Virus record (IMG/VR): IMGVR_UViG_3300006078_000009
Span: 1-24,820 of that record
Strand: one strand, 5' to 3'
DNA from: a virus
DNA length: 24,820 nucleotides
Numbering within the stretch: the first letter of the stretch is position 1; each line of letters begins with the position of its first letter. The position numbers were made by a program, and so were the translations under genes. Positions 3,026-20,407 of this stretch are shown here, one piece after another. The notes below the pieces were generated by a model. It did no database searches and was not told where the DNA came from. It saw nothing but the letters and a program-made list of their open reading frames with translations.

Positions 3026-3829
3026 ATGGGATTATTTAGCACTATAGGTAACTTTATAGCACCAGGAGTTGGCGGAATGGTTGGAGGTTTAGTTGACTCA
3101 AGTATGTCTTCTGGAAGAGCTTCAGATCTATCAGGTCAAATTGGCGGAATGTCTGAAGAGCAGTATCAAAAAGAATTGCCTTGGGATGTATCAGGTCAAT
3201 TCGGTGGTATCACTTATGACCGAGAAGGTAGGGCTGTATCTACAGAGTTATCTGCACCCTGGCAGTCGAGCATGGACTCCTTGCTAGGTCGTGCTGCTTT
3301 AACTGGTACTCAAATTGATAAATACTCAGCTGACCCTATGGCGTTTGGTCATCAGTTAGCTCAAGAACGAATTGGCTTACATGAACCTGCTGATACAAGA
3401 GCAGCTTTATCTCGTGAAGCTAGAGCTGTGCAACAAGGTCAATATGGAACTACTGGTTTTGCTGGTAGAGAAGGTGTTCAACAAGATGCTTTAAATCGTA
3501 GAAACCAAGCTTATGAGGTTCAAGGATTCCAAGATGCTCTTAAATTAGGCACTTCATTGAGAGACTGGCAGAAGGGCGATACTCAACAAGCTATTACTAT
3601 TGGCAAGCTTCCTATGGAATATCTGGGATTAGCACAATCTGGTGGTGTAAGTAACGATCCTTATGCTGATATGAAAGTTGAAGGAGTAAAAGGTGCCTCT
3701 AAAGCTAGAGGTATGATGTACGATGAGTTTGGCAACGTAATAAGCGGTATGCTTGGCGGCTCTTCAGGCGGAGGCTTGAGTTTTGACGATCCGTATATCC
3801 AAGATATTGGAATTTCTAGCTATACATAG
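3026..3829 (+). CDS. Putative ejection / internal virion protein (gp7-like position)
   Basis: A 267-residue protein opening with a glycine-rich hydrophobic helix (IGNFIAPGVGGMVGGLVD). A long helical, Q/R/A-rich middle follows (residues about 100-185), and the C-terminal part is glycine-rich (SGMLGGSSGGGLSF). The order fibre, small protein, medium protein, very large protein matches P22 gp7-gp20-gp16 and T7 gp14-gp15-gp16, which leave the head at infection and form a conduit across the envelope. GGAG lies just before ATG (TAGGAGAATATTATG). I do not recognise a named domain, so the call rests on order and composition. Confidence 0.5.
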   Translation: MGLFSTIGNFIAPGVGGMVGGLVDSSMSSGRASDLSGQIGGMSEEQYQKELPWDVSGQFGGITYDREGRAVSTELSAPWQSSMDSLLGRAALTGTQIDKYSADPMAFGHQLAQERIGLHEPADTRAALSREARAVQQGQYGTTGFAGREGVQQDALNRRNQAYEVQGFQDALKLGTSLRDWQKGDTQQAITIGKLPMEYLGLAQSGGVSNDPYADMKVEGVKGASKARGMMYDEFGNVISGMLGGSSGGGLSFDDPYIQDIGISSYT

Positions 3830-3838
3830 GAGATAATA

Positions 3839-4969
3839 ATGGCAACAACAATGTTTACAAACCCGTATGACGCTCAGGTATCAGCTGACGCAGCTAGAAG
3901 AAAAGAAATGCGCGAAATTGCTCAGATGGATGCGTACGATTACCACGCTTACCAAGCTGGACAATCTAGTGCTGGAGCTGGTAGAGCTTTAGGTGGTATG
4001 CTAGGTATGCAAACACCTGAGCAAGCCAAGCAAGATAAAATTGAAGAGATTATGGGTCAGTACGGTGAAGGTACTAAATCTTATGAACAGTTAATGCAAA
4101 TTGCTGATTCATTTAGAAGTGCCAATATGCCAGATCTATGGCAAGAAGTTATGAATATGGCTGATAAGATGAAGCCTACTAGTTCTACTGATTTGAAGAA
4201 GTGGCAGTATCAGATTGCCGGACACAAGCAAGCTATTGCTGACTACGCTAAAAGTAAGGGCTACAATCTTACAGATAGACAGCTAGACAACCTTGTTAGC
4301 TCTACTAAAGCTAAACCAACATTAAACCAACTTGGTGGCGAACAGGTGAGTGGCTGGGTTGATATTGTTAATCAGGCGTTAGCTGGAATGAAGCCTAATG
4401 TTACTGAGACTGGAGGCGGCTCCGATGGTGATGTTAGTGCCACTGGTTCAACTGATACTAGTATGACGGCTCTTGCAAGATTAAAGCCCCTAGAAAATAT
4501 GCAAACTAATTATAGAACGGATACCAAGGAATCTCGAACCGCTCTAAAATCTGTAGAAGATGGTCTTAGTTATGTTAAACAGCATAGGGGTGGTGTTAGT
4601 TCCGCCCGTCCAAATATAACAAAAGTTCTTGCTCAAATGAATAATGACAATAGACTTTCACAGCCTGAAGTTGTTCATGCAATGAAGTTTGGTGGGCTTG
4701 GCGATAGAATCGCAAGAAGTATGTCACTTTGGATAACAGGCGATATACCTGATGCCGATTTAGACGATATTGAGAGAATGTTTAGGATAGTCGGACAGGT
4801 TTCAGAGCAAAGGTTGAATGAAAGAAATTTGGAGTATAGATTTAAGTATAAAGATAGTCTTACAGATGACGAACTTAACATCTGGCTTCCTAAAAGACCT
4901 CAAAAGTACCTGACAGATGCTCAAAAACTAGAGTTAGCTAGAGAAGCATTAAGCAAGAGAGGTAAATAA
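3839..4969 (+). CDS. Putative ejection / internal virion protein, medium (gp20-like position)
   Basis: A 376-residue, mostly helical protein, rich in Q, A, M and K, without a signal peptide or membrane segment. An acidic, glycine/serine/threonine linker near residues 195-208 (GGGSDGDVSATG) separates an N-terminal helical half from a charged C-terminal half. GGAG stands nine bases before ATG. The gene ends in TAATG shared with the next, much larger gene. It is second of three consecutive genes of rising size after the fibre, the arrangement of podovirus ejection proteins. Function is inferred from position only. Confidence 0.5.
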   Translation: MATTMFTNPYDAQVSADAARRKEMREIAQMDAYDYHAYQAGQSSAGAGRALGGMLGMQTPEQAKQDKIEEIMGQYGEGTKSYEQLMQIADSFRSANMPDLWQEVMNMADKMKPTSSTDLKKWQYQIAGHKQAIADYAKSKGYNLTDRQLDNLVSSTKAKPTLNQLGGEQVSGWVDIVNQALAGMKPNVTETGGGSDGDVSATGSTDTSMTALARLKPLENMQTNYRTDTKESRTALKSVEDGLSYVKQHRGGVSSARPNITKVLAQMNNDNRLSQPEVVHAMKFGGLGDRIARSMSLWITGDIPDADLDDIERMFRIVGQVSEQRLNERNLEYRFKYKDSLTDDELNIWLPKRPQKYLTDAQKLELAREALSKRGK

Positions 4970-7875
4970 TGGCCGAAATGTATGATGGAACTTGGCAGGA
5001 AGGTGATGGTACTGTTCATGAGAAAGATCCTGTAGCTTTAAATGCGTTCAATGAAGAAATGAACACAATGTCTACTCAGCAGCTTGAAGAGTATATAACA
5101 GGCCTTGCAAGTAGGACGGCTTCAAAGAGCCAAGGAGATACCCCCGATTTTGACACTATGTCTGATGAGGAGATTTATGCTTACGTTGCTAAACTAGAGC
5201 AAGGTCAAGTTAAAGAAAACAGGTATACAGATCTCACTGAGTATTACGTTGATCGGGTTGAATCTGGTATAACATCCACACCATCAATGGTGGGCGCAGC
5301 TATAAAAACCTTTTTAATTGATCCTGTTGAAAAGATAGTATCTAAATCGCCTGAAGATCTATTAAAAGAATACGGCCCAGATGTTGCTGAGAATTTATTC
5401 AATTTTATGACTAAATCTGGCTTACCGTCTGGCTCTAATAAAGATAGTGCTGATGATTTATATCAACAGTTTGGCGAAAACTTTATGAATTACCAGCATG
5501 GTTATCAGGAGCTTTTCAACCTAGACGTTGATAAGACCGGCAAGAAGCCGCCTAACGATGTGCATAGATATTTAGGATCAGGTGTAGAGGCATTTTCAGA
5601 TCCGTACGGCCTTCTTCTGAAGACTGGTGGAGCTATTACTAGCATCTTGTCAAGAGCAACCGGCCTTCAGATAGTTGGCATGGGTTCTGAGTTCGGAGGA
5701 GATGTTGGTGGATCTCTTGAAGAAACCTATACTGGCAAGCCGGAGACTGGAACCTGGAGAACTGTTGGGTCTGTAGGTATGACTGTCCCAAGCGCATTTA
5801 TTTCTGCACCCATTTCATCCGCATTATTTGATACAGGTGGGTCTGCTTTTAGAAAGTTTAAAGAAATTAAAGCTAATTCAGGAGATGCTCAGCAAGCTTA
5901 TTCAACAACATACGTTAAAGGTGTTCTAGCTAAGATTGTGGAAGAGAATCCAGATATTAATTCAATTCTGGGAGATCTTAACAAGATTGGCGTTAAATGG
6001 GATGCTGGAGATTTTCCTCTTATTGCAGCGGCCGGACAAAGTCCAACAGCACACTCGCAGCTTGTTAAATTAGCAAAGACAAATGCCACTTATAGACACG
6101 GCTTTGAGATGGAGCTAAAGAGAATGAAAGATTTAGTTGAGCAAAATGCTGATCGAATCTTTGGCAATAGATATGCTGAACTACCTTGGAATGACGCTGC
6201 AATTAAGAAAGGATTGCAGGCTAGACAGCAAAGGCTGATTAAAGCTAGATCTCATATTGATGATCGTATCCAGGGGATGCAAGATAAGCTTGACCCAAGT
6301 ATGTCTGATCTTGACCGTGGTATCGCTATTGAAAACCTAGTAGCCCAGCGTGAGAAACTAGCTAGAGCAGAGTTAAAGCCTGTTTATGACTCTTTAATCA
6401 AAGAGGCTACCGAACAAGGTGTTCATGTACCGGCTGAATTTGTGGGCGAGTTTTATGATTTTATTAAAGCAAACTCTGTCCGAGATCTTTTTGGTAAGCT
6501 TACCGATGTAGACAAACAAGTGTTTAAAAAGCTAAAGCCAGAAATTAAAACAGTAAACGGTATTAATATACCCGAGTTTAAGTCTATGTCTTTCGCTCAA
6601 GTGGAATCATTGAAACGAGCTGTAAACAGATTGAAGCGCTCTCCAATGTCTAAAACAGAACAAAGACAGCTTCAACAGTTTGAGGAGCAGTTTAATGTAG
6701 TTAGAGGGAAATTATACAAAGAGAGTGCTGTAATTAACGGAACACGAACTTCTGTAAATCCAGCTGGCTCTTTTAATGAAAGATTGCTTAGTGTTGATAA
6801 GCTTTACTACGAAAAGGTAGGATTGCCGTTCGATGCTGAAGCTATTGCTCAAATCGGTAAAAAGAGATACTCAACCGAAGTTGCTAATATTATTCTAAAG
6901 AACCGTGAGGCTCTTGATCAATATATGAATGTAGCTGGCAAGGAAGGCCCTCAGCTTGCCCGTGACGCTATGATTGCCAAGCTACACAGTAAAGTGGTAG
7001 TTAATGGTATTTTAGATCGCAAGAGACTTGCTAGAGAGCTTGCTAAAAACAAAGATGTTATAGATGGAATACCTGGGATGAAGAGTGAGTTAGATAACAT
7101 TCAGATGGATGCTGACTATCTTGGCATGAGAATGGGAACTCTTGATGATGCCCTCAAGGCTGAGCGAAGTAAAGTTGCAGATCACTTCTTATCTACAAGT
7201 GGATTCGCTCCAGACTACAAGACTTTAGTTAGTGGCATGGTTGCCAGTCCTAAAAATCTAAAGAAATTCTTGGGAGATATTAAATCTCTTGACTCATCAA
7301 CTAAAACTGCAGTTATGGGTAGAGTAAGGCGAGAATTTGTTGAAAGCTTAAAGTCTCAACCTACTGGCGCTTATGAGTTTATGATGAGTCCTAGAAATGC
7401 CAAGGTGTTAAACGACATTATGGGCAAGGGTTATACTAAAGACTTAAAAGACTTTGCTAAAGTAATTGATGCTATGAATGGCATTGACGTTAAAAAACTT
7501 GGCGCAACACTAAATAAAGCTGAAGTAGATTGGGTTGGTAGGTACGCTAAAGGCCTTGATGCTAAATATGTATCATCTCAATTAAGAGATAGAATATCAA
7601 GTGTTGTTATGAAAATGACAAGGCTTTCTTCTAAAATGCTAGACTATAAGACTGCTCAAGGTATGGATAGAAGCGTGTTCGAACTTCTTGTAGATCGTGA
7701 AGGAATGAAGAAAGTTATTGAGTCTGTAGCTAAGATGGACTTTAATATCGACACACCGTTGAAGTTGAAGAACATTACAGGCGTGATTAAAGACGTGTTG
7801 CCGGTATATATGTACACCGGACTTAAAACAAGTGTTAGCCATGAGGCTGAAGAAATAGAACAAAAAATTCAATAG
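4969..7875 (+). CDS. Large internal virion / ejection protein (gp16-like position)
   Basis: At 968 residues this is the largest protein in the window. The N-terminal 200 residues are acidic and helical. Residues about 212-290 are Gly/Ala/Ser-rich and hydrophobic (GAITSILSRATGLQIVGMG, SVGMTVPSAFISAPISSALF), a segment that could insert into a membrane. The remainder is long charged helices. I see no transglycosylase motif in it; the lysozyme-like domain is in the separate gene at 9638. In P22 and T7 the equivalent large ejection protein enters the cell ahead of the DNA. The RBS is AGAGAGG, overlapping the end of the previous gene. Confidence 0.55.
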   Translation: MAEMYDGTWQEGDGTVHEKDPVALNAFNEEMNTMSTQQLEEYITGLASRTASKSQGDTPDFDTMSDEEIYAYVAKLEQGQVKENRYTDLTEYYVDRVESGITSTPSMVGAAIKTFLIDPVEKIVSKSPEDLLKEYGPDVAENLFNFMTKSGLPSGSNKDSADDLYQQFGENFMNYQHGYQELFNLDVDKTGKKPPNDVHRYLGSGVEAFSDPYGLLLKTGGAITSILSRATGLQIVGMGSEFGGDVGGSLEETYTGKPETGTWRTVGSVGMTVPSAFISAPISSALFDTGGSAFRKFKEIKANSGDAQQAYSTTYVKGVLAKIVEENPDINSILGDLNKIGVKWDAGDFPLIAAAGQSPTAHSQLVKLAKTNATYRHGFEMELKRMKDLVEQNADRIFGNRYAELPWNDAAIKKGLQARQQRLIKARSHIDDRIQGMQDKLDPSMSDLDRGIAIENLVAQREKLARAELKPVYDSLIKEATEQGVHVPAEFVGEFYDFIKANSVRDLFGKLTDVDKQVFKKLKPEIKTVNGINIPEFKSMSFAQVESLKRAVNRLKRSPMSKTEQRQLQQFEEQFNVVRGKLYKESAVINGTRTSVNPAGSFNERLLSVDKLYYEKVGLPFDAEAIAQIGKKRYSTEVANIILKNREALDQYMNVAGKEGPQLARDAMIAKLHSKVVVNGILDRKRLARELAKNKDVIDGIPGMKSELDNIQMDADYLGMRMGTLDDALKAERSKVADHFLSTSGFAPDYKTLVSGMVASPKNLKKFLGDIKSLDSSTKTAVMGRVRREFVESLKSQPTGAYEFMMSPRNAKVLNDIMGKGYTKDLKDFAKVIDAMNGIDVKKLGATLNKAEVDWVGRYAKGLDAKYVSSQLRDRISSVVMKMTRLSSKMLDYKTAQGMDRSVFELLVDREGMKKVIESVAKMDFNIDTPLKLKNITGVIKDVLPVYMYTGLKTSVSHEAEEIEQKIQ

Positions 7876-7885
7876 GAGAATAGCA

Positions 7886-9049
7886 ATGGAAAGAAAAGGA
7901 ATTAGACACCCAAAAACTGGCGACTTTATGACAGCTGATCAAAGAAAAAAAGCTGAGTTTGAACACAACATGGAATTACTCAGAACCATTCTACCTGAGG
8001 AATTAAACAATACAGGTCCTCGGAATTTCCTGGATTCAGGCGGTATGTCTACTGGCTTTGGTGGAAACCGATGGCAAAAATATATAGATGAGTTAAGAAG
8101 TCGAGGTGAGGACGAGCAAGCTGAAGAAGCTCAACGCATTATAAACAGTAAAAAGGAAGCTGCCTCTACTGGTCAAGAGTGGGAAGAGTTTACAGTTGAG
8201 AAAGATGGTACAACAGTGTATGACCAAGACACTGGTGAGCAGGTATATCCTAAACAGTCTAGGAATCTTAAAGGAAATAGAGACCCTAGAACTGGCGACC
8301 TTCTAACAGTTTCTGATAGTGAGGGCGCTGAACATCCATTAACAGGTAAGCCTACAGCAGTGAGACTCGTAGATGGTGTAGTAACTGATCCTTCTAATTT
8401 GAATGACGCTCAATCAAAAATAAACATAGATAATATTAAAGAAAAGTACGGTAATATTATTGAAGGTGAAAGAAAGGGTAGAGAATTAAGAGCTAAAAAG
8501 AGAAATGCAGATGCTAACACTCAAATAGAACAAGAAGATTCAGTTGATAACTGGATGGCTAACTTTGAGTCTATGTCTGATGTACAGTTTGAATCTATTG
8601 ACTATGAAGAATTAGCTCAATATGGTGAAAACGCTCAAGATGCTTATACTGAGATTAAGTTAGCAAAAGGTGAAGCAGATAGCGAATTTACTGATGCTCA
8701 GATGGATGCTGCTGAGACAGATAGACAAGCTATGGAGATGGAATCTGATTTTGATGCTGAAATTGCTCAAGACCAAAGCATGGAAGATGATATATCTGAA
8801 TCTGAACTTGATAGGCTAATGATGGAAGCTGAGTCCGATAGAGATTCTATGGAAGGAGATGCTGAGAAGAGAAACTTTCCTATGATGAATATGTCTGATA
8901 AAGACAAAGGTATGTTCACATTCCAAAAGACAGACACTATTGCTAATAAGAAGCAGCAAGACTCAATCAATACGATTGTGGGCGATACGGGTATGAACGA
9001 AGAACAAGCACGTCAGTTAATGACTAAATTAAAGGGAATCTGTGGCTAA
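7886..9049 (+). CDS. Acidic repetitive virion-region protein
   Basis: A 387-residue strongly acidic protein of unknown function in the late operon. Two kinds of internal repeat are visible. An HPKTGDFMT-like motif recurs as DPRTGDLLT and HPLTGK at roughly residues 8, 133 and 151. A D-R-x-M-E-x-E-S-D motif recurs in the low-complexity region around residues 290-325. It is probably a structural or ejection-associated protein, since it follows the large ejection gene with only a ten-base gap and a good GGAG site. Base-rich, aspartate-rich proteins can mimic DNA, but nothing here shows that. The stop TAA shares its last base with the next ATG. Confidence 0.5.
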   Translation: MERKGIRHPKTGDFMTADQRKKAEFEHNMELLRTILPEELNNTGPRNFLDSGGMSTGFGGNRWQKYIDELRSRGEDEQAEEAQRIINSKKEAASTGQEWEEFTVEKDGTTVYDQDTGEQVYPKQSRNLKGNRDPRTGDLLTVSDSEGAEHPLTGKPTAVRLVDGVVTDPSNLNDAQSKINIDNIKEKYGNIIEGERKGRELRAKKRNADANTQIEQEDSVDNWMANFESMSDVQFESIDYEELAQYGENAQDAYTEIKLAKGEADSEFTDAQMDAAETDRQAMEMESDFDAEIAQDQSMEDDISESELDRLMMEAESDRDSMEGDAEKRNFPMMNMSDKDKGMFTFQKTDTIANKKQQDSINTIVGDTGMNEEQARQLMTKLKGICG

Positions 9050-11560: not shown

Positions 11561-12010
11561 TTACCAAGGGTCTCCTATTACTTTTGTAATTTGTTTTGAA
11601 GTCCATCCTATTCCTCTGAAATACTCCCTTGAAATCCATTTGGTTGATGATGGTATGTCTTTTGAATTAAAAGTGTCGTAAAAGCATTCCTTGGCCTCAG
11701 GATTCGATTTATTCCAAATACCTGAGTAGTTGATTTGAACATCAGTAGATTGTGGTAGAAATTTAGTCACCATTACGTTATCTTGCTGTTTAATTAACTC
11801 AAGTAAAGCTTGAATACCATCTGCCGGTACTTTCGGGATAGCTTTCATAACTTTTGAGTGTTGATATAAGTTGTAATCCTGCTTCTCGCTCAAGAAAAAG
11901 TCGATTAGCTTAGTTGCCCAAATGTTCTTGACATTCATCTTGATCTTGTTGAATACGATAAGTTCTTCGACAATCTCATTAGCAAGTGTATTTACCTCTT
12001 CTTCATTCAT
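11561..12010 (-). CDS. Putative replication-block protein downstream of the O-like gene
   Basis: A 149-residue protein, ATGA-overlapped with the O-like replication gene upstream, which implies coupled expression. In lambda-type phages this position carries a helicase loader or a partner of the initiator, but I see no Walker motif or DnaC/P signature. The N-terminus is acidic and helical. The middle has KVPADGIQALLELIKQ, and the C-terminus has an aromatic stretch (KWISREYFRGIGWTS) that could be a small DNA-binding unit. The loader idea is an inference from order; plain hypothetical is the safe reading. Confidence 0.5.
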   Translation of the reverse strand: MNEEEVNTLANEIVEELIVFNKIKMNVKNIWATKLIDFFLSEKQDYNLYQHSKVMKAIPKVPADGIQALLELIKQQDNVMVTKFLPQSTDVQINYSGIWNKSNPEAKECFYDTFNSKDIPSSTKWISREYFRGIGWTSKQITKVIGDPW

Positions 12011-12678
12011 TGTGCCACCTTGTCTTGTAACTTCATGGCAATTAACGCTTTACGTGAGTCACTCATTCCGGCAAACGTACCTTTCTTGGCCGAAGCTACA
12101 CCAACTTGTATGTAGTCCTTGCGTAGATAGTTTCTGAAGCATGATTGTAAGTCTTGCCACTTCGCTGTTCGATTGAACATCTGATCTTTAAATGATTGGA
12201 TTAACTCAGCGCCTTGTGATTGAGTGACACCGGCGTACTTATCTCTAACAGCTTTTAATGATGCCTCGTTAGGTATGAAATTTTCTATTTGATCTTTCTT
12301 AGTATTAGTATTAGTAGTTATAGTATTAGTAGTTATAGTATTAGTATTAGTATTAGTAGGGTCGTCACGTAGTCGTAACGAGGCCGTACTACTCTTACCA
12401 AATAAACAGTCATCTGTTAATACACTGTTGCAGTTAGATAGAACACTAAGGTTCTTCTCAATAACAGCTTCTGATAGTCTTTCATACTGTGTCTGAGTAA
12501 TTTCAATAGTTTCGCTTACTGAGTTTTTACTAGCATTGTATCCAAAGAATAAAGTAAGCTTAAACGATAGCTTAGTAGTCTTATGGGTTAGTAAAGATTG
12601 AAGACTTGCTCCGGTATAGCTTTCTACATCATGCTTTGTGTGGTTGACAATTATGTTGTCAATTATATTAATCTCCAT
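12007..12678 (-). CDS. Lambda O / DnaT-like phage replication protein
   Basis: A 223-residue protein with two parts joined by a Thr/Asn repeat linker (residues about 107-127). The N-terminal part has winged-helix-like helix and strand alternation (SLLTHKTTKLSFKLTLFF, then VSETIEITQTQYERLSE). The C-terminal part has an AxxFKDQMFNRTAKWQDLQ-SCFRNYLR pattern (residues 160-186), the F..(10-12)..W..L...F..WLR arrangement of phage replication proteins and DnaT-type domains. It probably binds the origin and recruits the host helicase or primosome. The linker is encoded by AT-rich repeats with phased 10-11 bp repeats beside them, as in lambda where the origin lies inside O. GAGG precedes the ATG. Confidence 0.6.
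   Translation of the reverse strand: MEINIIDNIIVNHTKHDVESYTGASLQSLLTHKTTKLSFKLTLFFGYNASKNSVSETIEITQTQYERLSEAVIEKNLSVLSNCNSVLTDDCLFGKSSTASLRLRDDPTNTNTNTITTNTITTNTNTKKDQIENFIPNEASLKAVRDKYAGVTQSQGAELIQSFKDQMFNRTAKWQDLQSCFRNYLRKDYIQVGVASAKKGTFAGMSDSRKALIAMKLQDKVAQ
12300..12392. repeat. AT-rich tandem repeat plus phased GTCGTAACGA units inside the O-like gene
   Basis: Positions 12300-12358 are tandem TTAGTA / TAGTTA units on the + strand, encoding the Thr/Asn linker on the minus strand. Directly next to it, 12361-12392 holds three units at 11, 11 and 10 bp spacing: GTCGTCACGTA, GTCGTAACGAG, GCCGTACTAC. An initiator-site array beside an easily melted tract is the layout of an intragenic phage origin. 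Origin function is inferred. Confidence 0.5.
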
Positions 12679-12810: not shown

Positions 12811-13257
12811 TTAGCTTGCTCGCATAAGCAACGACCAATCAAAATCCTTTGAGTACATCATTCGGTCTTTATAGTAATTCTTAACCTCTTGTGCTTGGCT
12901 CTCAATAGGCACATAGCCTTTGATACCCTCAGGTCGCTTGCCCTTGCCAGGCTTCTTGGCAAGTTTTTCAACATCTGTTATGCCCTTAGCAAGTCTTGCA
13001 TTCATAGTTGAGTGGTTGATATTGAATCGCTCAGCTATCTGCCTTGCGCTCATCTTAGTACCATCAGATAACTCATAGTGTTTACTGTTATAAACAGAAT
13101 GGCGTGAAGACATTCTAGGTCTCATAACCATATCAACATCAGTAGATTTTTCCAAGCGGTATCTTGCCGCGGCATGGCAAATATTTAGTTTAGCTCCAAG
13201 ACTCATCGCAGTCCACGATGTGCCATTACTTAATATATACGTTTTCGGTGTGATCAT
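12811..13257 (-). CDS. Double helix-turn-helix DNA-binding protein
   Basis: A 148-residue protein made of two copies of the same unit. YILSNGTSWTAMSLGAKLN plus ICHAAARYRLEKSTDVD lies at about residues 7-42, and YELSDGTKMSARQIAERFN plus INHSTMNARLAKGITDVEKL at about 61-98. Each has a beta-hairpin (L-S-[ND]-G-T) and a helix-turn-helix, as in NUMOD/HTH modules of phage proteins. A basic linker (KKPGKGKRPEG) and a helical tail follow. No nuclease motif is visible. It may bind paired sites such as tandem repeats or the origin. GGGGGAG lies seven bases before the ATG, and it sits between SSB and the O-like gene. Confidence 0.65.
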   Translation of the reverse strand: MITPKTYILSNGTSWTAMSLGAKLNICHAAARYRLEKSTDVDMVMRPRMSSRHSVYNSKHYELSDGTKMSARQIAERFNINHSTMNARLAKGITDVEKLAKKPGKGKRPEGIKGYVPIESQAQEVKNYYKDRMMYSKDFDWSLLMRAS

Positions 13258-16961: not shown

Positions 16962-17264
16962 TTAAATATCCCAATTAACAGTTAGAATATTCTTTCTACG
17001 GTCTATTGTGTCTTGTGCTTTTGAGATCATTTCTGCATTAAGTAATTTAACAATTGATCTTTTTATAGTTGATACTCCATAGCCTCTAAAGTATTTTGTT
17101 TTGCGTGTCTTTTGTATTGTTACCCTTTGATGTGCTGAGATATAGATGAATATAGCCATGTCTATGTCATTCAATTTAACATTGTAAATATCTGATAACT
17201 CAGATTGAAAATCTTTAGTCTTGCTGAGTATTGGCCAAATGTGTCTAGCGTGTTTTTCTTGCAT
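16962..17264 (-). CDS. Winged-helix (MarR/replication-regulator-like) protein, first gene of the early operon
   Basis: A 100-residue protein from the ATG at 17264. I prefer this over the ORF start at 17348 because GGAGA lies four bases before it, while the extra upstream codons are repeat DNA. Residues about 38-98 form a winged helix-turn-helix: IDMAIFIYISAHQRVTIQK, then GVSTIKRSIVKLLNAEMISK (recognition helix) and a two-strand wing (AQDTIDRRKNILTVNW). As first gene behind a sigma70-type promoter with repeats between promoter and start, it may autoregulate the operon. Family recognised only at fold level. Confidence 0.6.
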   Translation of the reverse strand: MQEKHARHIWPILSKTKDFQSELSDIYNVKLNDIDMAIFIYISAHQRVTIQKTRKTKYFRGYGVSTIKRSIVKLLNAEMISKAQDTIDRRKNILTVNWDI

Positions 17265-17284: not shown

Positions 17285-17316
17285 TTCGTAACGACTTCGT
17301 ACTACTTCGTAACGAC
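17285..17316. repeat. Three phased TTCGTAACGAC units upstream of the early operon
   Basis: TTCGTAACGAC (17285-17295), TTCGTACTAC (17296-17305) and TTCGTAACGAC (17306-17316) lie head-to-tail at 11 and 10 bp, about one helical turn each. They are between the promoter and the first gene of the minus operon. The same units occur inside the O-like gene at 12361-12392. They could be operator or initiator sites. Confidence 0.6.
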
Positions 17317-17353: not shown

Positions 17354-17381
17354 ATTCTAACCTAATATTCTAGTGTGTCAA
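17354..17381 (-). promoter_or_regulatory. Early minus-strand promoter
   Basis: On the minus strand: TTGACA (17376-17381), a 16-bp spacer and TAGAAT (17354-17359), a strong sigma70-type match. It is about 90 bases before the first ATG of the operon. A second TATTGACACA copy at 17428-17436 suggests an upstream alternative or an operator. Confidence 0.65.
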
Positions 17382-17447
17382 TAGTGTATAGCAAAATAAA
17401 CATAAATAAATCATAGTGATCTATTCTGTGTCAATACCGCTGTTAAT

Positions 17448-17800
17448 CTTTTTCTTTTTTCTTTTTTTTATTATTATTATTATTAGTAAGCCTTTTTTCA
17501 GTTGATAACCTAAAAAAAACTAGATAAATCAAAGCTTTAGATAGTGGATAACAATGTTGATAAGGTTGGTATGGGATTGTGGATAAGTGGATAACTTCGC
17601 TGTTTTAGATGGGTTATTAACAATATTGAGTGGTTGTGGATAACGTGCAACTCACCTATGTTGATAACTTAACGCGATGCTCACTTAACGTGATACCCAC
17701 CCTTAACGCGATGCTCACCTAATGTTTATAACTGTGTTGATAACTAGCTTTTTTAAGATTTGGTTGTGGATAACTATCTCTTTTTTGTGGATAACTTTAT
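17448..17800. other. Origin-like region: DnaA boxes and AT-rich tract
   Basis: This gene-free divergent region starts with a T-rich tract and ATT repeats (17448-17486), a candidate unwinding element. It is followed by four exact TGTGGATAA boxes (17578, 17635, 17765, 17786), the complement of TTATCCACA. Variants are also present: TGTTGATAA at 17555, 17659 and 17735; AGTGGATAA at 17543 and 17586; AGTTGATAA at 17500. All point the same way. A 16-18 bp repeat array lies among them. This resembles a plasmid or chromosomal origin using host DnaA. Origin function is inferred. Confidence 0.6.
17641..17719. repeat. 16-18 bp direct-repeat array 1 (iteron-like)
   Basis: Units at 17641-17656 (degenerate), 17669-17684, 17685-17702 and 17703-17719 fit TTAACG[CT]GAT[AG]C[CT]CACC. 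They have no spacers, apart from the gap after the first unit, which holds a TGTTGATAA box. The same family recurs at 18441-18507. Confidence 0.75.
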
Positions 17801-17813
17801 TTATAATTTAGTG

Positions 17814-17841
17814 TTGCAAAAGTATATACTACTGCTATAAT
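17814..17841 (+). promoter_or_regulatory. Early plus-strand promoter
   Basis: TTGCAA (17814-17819), a 16-bp spacer and a perfect TATAAT (17836-17841), with transcription expected near 17848, about 28 bases before the GTG start of the first plus-strand early gene. Confidence 0.7.
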
Positions 17842-17875
17842 TCAATCTCTTAAATAAAAACATGGAGTTTTAAAA

Positions 17876-18199
17876 GTGAAAAAGATAACCGAAGACAGCG
17901 TTAAAGCCTTTTTTAAAGGTAGTAAATTAACAAAGGGAAACATGAGTATTAATACCGATATGTATTTTGAAACTGATCGTGTTATGAGATTGCACGGTAA
18001 TGCAATTGCATGGATTAAAGGAAGTTATTTGACCATTAGTGATTGTGGATGGCAAACGGTAACTACTAAAGAGCGATTGAATGGGATTTTAACCCACTTG
18101 AATTTAGGATATATCTTTCAAAAGGATTTTGTTTGGTATTATTCGGCCGGTAACGGTTGCGTTAAACCTTTCAATGGATCAATGGAGGTTAAATTATGA
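17876..18199 (+). CDS. Small conserved-looking phage protein, unknown
   Basis: A 107-residue protein starting at a GTG, with GGAG eight bases before it. It has a pattern I associate with small uncharacterised phage and plasmid proteins: VKAFFKGSKLTKGNMSI, a strand pair around RLHGNAIAWIKG, then LTISDCGWQTVTTKERLNGI and FQKDFVWYYSAGNG. The D-x-GW-x-T-x-T-x-RLN segment seems the conserved core. No enzymatic motif is evident. It is first in a two-gene cassette flanked by the two repeat arrays, directly downstream of the DnaA-box region, so a replication or copy-control role is possible but unproven. Confidence 0.6.
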   Translation: MKKITEDSVKAFFKGSKLTKGNMSINTDMYFETDRVMRLHGNAIAWIKGSYLTISDCGWQTVTTKERLNGILTHLNLGYIFQKDFVWYYSAGNGCVKPFNGSMEVKL

Positions 18200-18444
18200 G
18201 CTATTATGTAACTAGAAAAAATGAGGATATAGTTGAGTACCTTGATAGCAGATCTAAAAGATGGAAGTCTTATTTTAAGATCAAACAAGGGTTAGATTGT
18301 GGATATAAGACAGAAAAAGGTGCAACTAAAAAACTGATCGAAGTTCAGGTGATTATTAAAGAATATTTTAATAAATCTAGTCTTGAATCTATCAGAAGTC
18401 GCAATATTGATGACTTTTTATACCTTTCAAGGATAGATCATTAA
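18196..18444 (+). CDS. Small basic protein, second gene of the flanked cassette
   Basis: An 82-residue protein overlapping the previous gene by ATGA. It is Lys/Arg-rich in the first half (RKNEDIVEYLDSRSKRWKSYF, KTEKGATKKL) and helical in the second. The basic character would suit nucleic-acid binding. Its TAA stop codon lies inside the first unit of the second repeat array, so the array may have been laid down or duplicated at the end of this gene. No family recognised. Confidence 0.55.
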   Translation: MSYYVTRKNEDIVEYLDSRSKRWKSYFKIKQGLDCGYKTEKGATKKLIEVQVIIKEYFNKSSLESIRSRNIDDFLYLSRIDH

Positions 18445-18507
18445 CGCGATGCCCACCTAACGTGATGCCTACCTAACGCGGTGCCTACCCTTAACGTGAT
18501 ACCCACC
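18441..18507. repeat. 16-17 bp direct-repeat array 2 (iteron-like)
   Basis: Four contiguous units at 18441-18457, 18458-18473, 18474-18490 and 18491-18507 fit [T]TAACG[CT]G[AG]T[AG]CC[CT]ACC. They have the same orientation as array 1, about 800 bp away. The first unit contains the stop codon of the 82-residue gene, and the last supplies one arm of the following terminator. Confidence 0.8.
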
Positions 18508-18534
18508 TAAGATTTATTCAAAGGTGGTTTTTTT
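18503..18534 (+). terminator. Intrinsic terminator after the two-gene cassette
   Basis: CCACCT (18503-18508) pairs with AGGTGG (18522-18527) across a 13-nt loop, followed by seven T residues. Its 5' arm is the end of the last array unit. Confidence 0.55.
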
Positions 18535-19582: not shown

Positions 19583-19706
19583 TCGTCTGATCAAAGATGT
19601 ATAAGTGTGTTGATAAGTTTTCTGCGGCTCATACTTAAGTAGTTGATTAATGAGTAATAATTACCAGTGTAAAAGTGTTGATAACTATTCAGATTATTAT
19701 CAAGCG

Positions 19707-19730
19707 TTGGAAGTTAAAATTAACATCCAA
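19707..19730. promoter_or_regulatory. 24-bp near-palindromic operator candidate
   Basis: TTGGA-A-GTTAA-AA-TTAAC-A-TCCAA: 20 of 24 positions are symmetric. Its left 14 bases (GTTGGAAGTTAAAA, from 19706) recur exactly at 19833-19846. This is the form of a dimeric repressor or activator site. Confidence 0.5.
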
Positions 19731-20164
19731 AAGGTTATAAATTAACTTCTAGGGTATTTGTTTGGATCTGATCTAGGGGTTCAAGGGGATAGATCATGTA
19801 ATTTATCTTTTAATAAAGATCTTTTGGTAGTGGTTGGAAGTTAAAAGGATATTTGGATCATAACGGCTTAGTTTAATTAGTGGATTAATGATTAAATTAT
19901 TGTTTGATCGTGGCGTTGATGCTTTGAAAATACTGCGTGGGTTTGTCTATGGGTTGTTAATCCCTTAATTATTTACTTTTCAAACGTTTTTACTCTGGTG
20001 GTTTAACTCTTAGAGTAAATTCAAGCAAACCTATATAGAGAAAGGCCTATAGCTGATACCGTTTCTAGTGTTTGGCAGGGGGGAGGCTCACTTGACCCTA
20101 TGCAACAATGGATACTATACCCAAGACAGAAGAAACGTAATTTGAAAAAAAAGGAAGAACATAT

Positions 20165-20212
20165 AGATAGACCTACTTAGCAGGTTTAAGTTACTGCTAC
20201 TTGTGCCTATCT
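20165..20212. promoter_or_regulatory. Large symmetric dyad upstream of terminase
   Basis: AGATAG-N7-TAGCAG-N10-CTGCTA-N7-CTATCT, two nested 6-bp stems with an even 7x7 internal loop. As DNA it could be a protein-binding or packaging site; as RNA a hairpin. Function unknown. Confidence 0.45.
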
Positions 20213-20345
20213 GGATTAACTATGTTAGTTCAATTGATTGTACTATGAAGATGTCTGTGTAATAACAATGAACATTGCTATGAAGTAACAAACTAGTTAA
20301 GGAAGATTTTAGCTGATAGATACTATATTGTCAAGTCATAATATA

Positions 20346-20375
20346 TTGTATAAACTGAATGTATAGGTATATAAT
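20346..20375 (+). promoter_or_regulatory. Candidate packaging-operon promoter
   Basis: TTGTAT (20346-20351), an 18-bp spacer and TATAAT (20370-20375), about 33 bases before the small terminase ATG. A second weaker pair, TTGTCA (20328-20333) with TATAAA (20349-20354), overlaps it. Confidence 0.45.
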
Positions 20376-20407
20376 AATGGTACTTTAACCCGTGATGGAT
20401 AATTAAA

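Follow-up and report, generated by a model that had tools for sequence, protein, structure and literature searches.

The intergenic stretch between positions 17449 and 17794 of this phage genome is best read as a DnaA-dependent origin of replication furnished with accessory iterons, and complemented by a second iteron array placed like incC in the F plasmid or incA in P1, an interpretation to which we assign a probability of roughly 55%. The window, i.e. the whole stretch of 24,820 bases that was analysed, is an incomplete marine phage record which carries genes for a terminase, a portal protein, an ERF annealing protein and RusA. One 16-bp repeat, TAACGYGATRCYYACC, makes up two four-unit arrays with all eight units on the plus strand, and the first of these arrays sits in a divergent intergenic region that displays the layout of a DnaA-dependent origin. 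The features of this region and of the adjoining two-gene cassette are as follows.

17354 to 17381, minus strand: leftward sigma-70-like promoter TTGACA-16-TAGAAT, from a consensus scan; the TTGACA stretch is conserved among the four aligned phages
17449 to 17485, plus strand: polypyrimidine tract and (TTA)6, a putative DNA unwinding element (DUE) with DnaA-trio-like triplets, nearly invariant in four phages
17500 to 17508, minus strand: DUE-proximal DnaA box TTATCAACT, 13 nt from the trio-like tract, present in four of four phages
17543 to 17643: left DnaA-box cluster, with boxes at 17543, 17555, 17578, 17586, 17614 and 17635
17641 to 17719, plus strand: array 1, iteron-like units starting at 17641, 17670, 17686 and 17704; a DnaA box (17659) separates the first unit from the second
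17723 to 17794: right DnaA-box cluster, with boxes at 17723, 17735, 17765 and 17786
17814 to 17841, plus strand: rightward promoter TTGCAA-16-TATAAT, from a consensus scan, with TG before the second hexamer and a GTATATAC palindrome in the spacer
17876 to 18199, plus strand: 107-aa ORF, PF23790 (Kyano_Gp96) / phrog_554
18196 to 18444, plus strand: 82-aa ORF, found beyond the window only in two near relatives
18442 to 18507, plus strand: array 2, units starting at 18442, 18458, 18474 and 18492
18503 to 18534, plus strand: intrinsic terminator, to which the last array-2 unit contributes its tail as the 5' arm; contig L009 has the same hairpin, L107 and L044 an analogous one

The repeat is specific to these two places, since exactly these eight sites are recovered in the whole record when up to two mismatches are allowed (the reversed-pattern control gives none), and up to three mismatches yield ten matches in the window against 1.02 expected, a number reached by 0 of 100 shuffles. 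Units are spaced 16-18 bp apart within the arrays, a non-integral number of helical turns, with the exception of the 29 bp that separate units 1 and 2 of array 1 and accommodate a DnaA box. The initial annotation had described two arrays of one repeat in the same orientation, the first lying among DnaA boxes; this is confirmed, with boxes found on both sides of array 1. Its first unit (17641), which had been called degenerate, does carry two mismatches to the consensus, and is more than degenerate in that it overlaps the DnaA box TGTGGATAACGTG. It was also correctly observed that array 2 starts at the stop codon of the second cassette gene and ends in a terminator stem: the TAA that ends the 82-aa ORF makes up the first three bases of the first array-2 unit, and the CCACCT of the last unit serves as 5' arm in a hairpin at 18503-18527 (-9.9 kcal/mol, z -2.3) that is followed by U7. 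The cassette is bordered by a repeated 27-nt leader (repeat family D4). A host or plasmid source of the repeats was considered and rejected: a scan of genome contigs returned four unrelated matches, the two inspected being local tandem duplications, and plasmids returned a single marginal match of 29 bp. Rfam and tRNA searches gave no match, and no relatives of the portal protein were found in genome contigs when these were searched for a host.

Around 11 near-consensus DnaA boxes are gathered within about 250 bp, most of them on the same strand, compared with 31 of that quality in the remaining 24.8 kb. In four of four phages a box, 13 nt and the tract 3'-GAT(TAT)5-5' follow one another in this order. 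This arrangement agrees with the BUS rule, which asks for a DnaA box with at most two mismatches, a spacer of 0-16 bp and at least three NAN triplets (PMC8287927), a rule that is permissive in A/T-rich DNA, where runs of 6-9 NAN triplets arise in most shuffles; in view of this leniency, the argument is carried by conservation and not by the rule. GC skew passes from negative into positive values at about 17.4 kb, which lends weak support because the direction of transcription also switches there. The promoter-like sites were obtained by a consensus scan whose total does not exceed that of shuffles. GTATATAC-like palindromes lie near both divergent promoters (17814-17841 and about 17378-17392) and are kept in L107, being possible sites for another regulator. 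Elsewhere in the window, about 800 bp between the early and the packaging genes (19600-20400) hold no listed ORF of at least 60 aa and contain two TTATCAACA boxes.

Conservation was assessed among relatives retrieved through portal searches, in which at least 80 viral contigs were listed; all contigs compared are incomplete, and no annotated phage relatives were found at the DNA level. Among the matches listed, the repeat is confined to the near relatives 3300048632 and 3300048878, plus 3300022900/3300022905. In an alignment of the origin from four phages, the polypyrimidine tract, the (TTA)6 and the box ladder are the most constant part, and the order and spacing of the boxes are nearly invariant. 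The diverged contig L011, in which the adjacent protein is 54-55% identical to that of the window, has nine boxes and four repeat units in the same order as in the window, with spacings that differ by no more than 2 bp, which bears out the earlier remark that iteron-like repeats stand near DnaA boxes. L107 keeps the box/DUE core and, of the iterons, just the fragments TTAACGTGA and GATAACGTAACG, with the repeat tails missing; this indicates that the iterons are an accessory layer, dispensable to the core. The sister contigs L070 and L092 carry a helicase and a few DnaA boxes as well, a point against the origin reading; intergenic clusters of such boxes were seen in L070 (three boxes, 7868-7910) and in L013 (about ten, 3213-3590), the latter with a PF23790 relative nearby.

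Array 2 is more variable in its occurrence than in its sequence. L011, a contig of 9.3 kb only, keeps array 1 and is missing both array 2 and the 82-aa gene, while the array 2 of L009 has three units compared with four in the window. Five substitutions separate the two copies, all of them in unit tails, and every aligned unit retains an intact TTAACGYGR or TAACGYGR; their rate is about that of the flanking gene, and a hypervariable array 2 was ruled out on this ground. At the array-2 position, before the terminator, L107 (320-390, minus strand) and L044 (1-60) carry another, 11-bp repeat, CCAACGTAACG, which in L107 directly follows a second early gene that is unrelated to the 82-aa gene. A TAACG repeat thus recurs where the first early operon ends, while its sequence and the gene before it change. 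L009, otherwise near-identical to the window, has an extra small gene (about 200 bp, 4796-4999) between the origin and the 107-aa gene, with unchanged flanks.

The replication genes of these phages also differ according to the presence of the origin. A DnaB-family helicase was detected in six of seven sister contigs without this origin and in none of the four contigs with it (G000-G003, those bearing the box ladder), a comparison between incomplete contigs in which absence is provisional. The matches are above the cut-off in G004, G005, G006, G008 and G011 and consist of a sub-threshold fragment at the contig end in G009, and the short G010 showed neither this origin nor a helicase. Such a distribution suggests that a replication module has been swapped, and that the lineage would rely on the DnaA and DnaB of its host. 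Two further genes of the window are relevant in this regard.

11561 to 12010, minus strand: 149-aa protein adjoining the O-like gene, restricted to the phages that carry this origin
12007 to 12678, minus strand: candidate O-like replication protein of 223 aa, so labelled in the initial annotation; a family search gave no confirmation

The 149-aa protein may be the P-like partner of the O-like protein. A structure model of the latter is unusable (pLDDT 37). Within the O-like gene, the Thr/Asn linker is encoded by a 60-bp CTA/ATA-rich tandem repeat (12299-12359, also 12360-12390, minus strand) preceded by CGTTACG motifs, and the same layout is present in L107 (4415-4505).

The initial annotation had left room for an initiator in the cassette and proposed asking whether the repeat tracks with the 107- and 82-residue genes, which it does not. 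The family of the 107-aa protein is widespread (370 phage records, mostly cyanophages) and occurs in phages without repeats, and seven further viral relatives showed no DnaA-box cluster; L011 lacks the 82-aa gene despite having array 1, with the qualification that on a contig of this length a copy may lie elsewhere in that phage, and in L107 the position of this gene is occupied by an unrelated one. Judged by their distribution across relatives, both proteins are rejected as plausible initiators. No Rep family was found among the neighbouring ORFs examined, and no Rep-like protein lies between the arrays. Attention is instead drawn to the beginning of the leftward operon.

16962 to 17264, minus strand: 100-aa winged-helix-like (wHTH) protein with a sub-threshold SarA/Rot match, encoded by the first gene of the leftward operon; tentative TAACG reader
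17286 to 17315: pair of TCGTAACGA palindromes spaced 21 bp apart within the wHTH leader, a stretch that hardly varies across four phages

The TCGTAACGA palindromes are probably the autoregulatory operator of the wHTH gene. They have TAACG in common with the iterons, a five-base overlap that taken alone is not significant, and CGTAACG in common with the L107 repeats. For the wHTH protein, identity is 97% and 87% in iteron-bearing phages (the 87% referring to L011, over the 53 residues present on that contig), 52% in L107 and 25-35% in sisters without iterons, a gradient that fits changing specificity as well as plain descent. A cognate Rep would be expected to have two winged helices, and a single one was recognized here, below threshold; the structure model is weak as well (pLDDT 64). 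This protein would be a weak first-choice candidate for reading the repeats, the odds being against it. As for other candidates, the double-HTH protein (12811-13257) is unlikely to be the reader, being 82% identical in L026 (3300007777), where there is no repeat, and the O-like protein is less likely since it is 73% identical in L107, which is without intact iterons, and has a 37-47% relative in L060, which is without box ladder or repeats.

Starting from the arrays, the origin-like anatomy with its conservation, and the presence or absence of arrays, helicase and cassette across relatives as observed, we infer origin activity, the use of DnaA, the nature of the binder and the role of array 2 along the following lines. 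Host DnaA would bind the ladder of about 11 boxes and open the adjacent polypyrimidine/(TTA)6 element, after which host DnaB would be loaded, a step proposed because the origin-bearing phages do not have the DnaB-like helicase of their sisters. Array 1 would provide accessory iterons inside the DnaA ladder, to which one further protein, most likely phage-coded, may bind and thereby help or gate DnaA assembly. Array 2, which closes the first early operon 0.8 kb away, would be an optional second set of sites that most likely titrates the array-1 binder or pairs with array 1, as incC does with oriS in F.

Other explanations have been weighed against this proposal. The arrays could be transcriptional operators through which a phage regulator controls the rightward early promoter and a promoter-like leader after array 2, with the DnaA boxes serving regulation and not initiation; array 1 does lie about 95-173 bp upstream of the extended -10 promoter, the wHTH leader has its palindromic operator, array 2 stands between two early transcription units, and the L107 repeats at that place carry the CGTAACG core of the operator. 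However, the DUE, the (TTA)6 and the 13-nt spacing are conserved beyond what transcription requires, and array 2 is optional and upstream of a terminator; we regard this explanation as unlikely. An alternative restricted to array 2 would deny it any separate function and make it a copy of array-1 units, carried there by recombination and partly reused as a terminator arm. Its absence from L011, its three units in L009, the neighbour-like substitution rate and the repeated 27-nt leader flanking the cassette are compatible with such a passive origin, while the confinement of substitutions to the tails, and the TAACG repeats that L107 and L044 have in this position, preceded in L107 by a different gene, speak against it, and on balance it seems rather unlikely.

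Activity of the repeats as RNA in a 3' untranslated region would require array 2 to be transcribed up to the terminator, as would be the case if the early transcript reads through; array 1 is nevertheless upstream of the promoter, and the arrays, terminator hairpin aside, are no more stably folded than shuffled sequence (z -0.74, 0.03 and 0.31), which makes this explanation very improbable. It is also conceivable that lytic replication really starts from a lambda-like origin within the O-like gene, as lambda has its origin inside its o gene (PMC7157519), the intergenic DnaA cluster then being a DnaA-titrating trap or a minor origin. The linker repeat after CGTTACG and its counterpart in L107 agree with that arrangement; nevertheless, the repeat codes for a Thr/Asn tract and could be explained by the protein alone, an ordered ladder with conserved spacing exceeds the needs of a titration trap, and the O-like identity itself was not confirmed by family search, so that we consider a lambda-like origin distinctly unlikely.

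A bolder extension of the preferred reading, of a DnaA-dependent origin with accessory iterons, is that a helicase-less tailed phage replicates lytically from a chromosome-style DnaA/DUE origin with a built-in F-like pair of iteron arrays, run by a small initiator, for example the 100-aa winged-helix protein, which might read TAACG both as operator and as direct repeats; we think this improbable. If the preferred reading is right, a lytic-looking phage group would have taken up the host DnaA start and a plasmid-style repeat control while giving up the helicase of its sisters, offering a testable case of phages that switched naturally between self-sufficient replication and dependence on host DnaA, and pointing to a very small iteron-binding protein.

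Among known systems, the P1 plasmid has an oriR-repA-incA layout comparable to that of F. In the F plasmid, the DnaA boxes, AT-rich region and four iterons of oriS are followed by repE and then by five incC iterons, and RepE-mediated looping between the two iteron sets is thought to block initiation (PMC13028717). The initial annotation had suggested a looped unit around the cassette, and this suggestion survives as far as the geometry of mini-F oriS-repE-incC is concerned (PMC13028717), and no further. As in F and P1, tandem direct repeats lie close to DnaA boxes and an AT-rich element, four tandem iterons are succeeded by a transcribed gene and a downstream second set of the same sequence, and a half-site is possibly common to operator and iteron. 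Unlike in these plasmids, the iteron spacing is 16-18 bp, the second array is optional and precedes a terminator, the arrays belong to a genome with terminase and portal genes, and about 11 DnaA boxes are present compared with 2 in F. Moreover, no Rep protein, the defining feature of the F type, is encoded between the phage arrays, for which reason the region is not filed as an F-type replicon, and a trans-acting reader would have to exist for the arrays to work in that way. With lambda-type origins the phage shares an O-like gene whose A/T linker is rich in repeats, whereas its array repeats are intergenic, 5 kb away and outside O. The origin core itself is closer in its make-up to a bacterial oriC than to a plasmid origin: as in bacterial BUS modules, in which 13 bp is the commonest spacer (PMC8287927), a DnaA box, a 13-nt spacer and triplets starting from 3'-GAT-5' lie beside a DUE-like tract in four phages. 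It differs from them in belonging to a phage, in the TAT-type trios that follow the first triplet, in the iterons inserted into the box ladder and in being recognized here from sequence.
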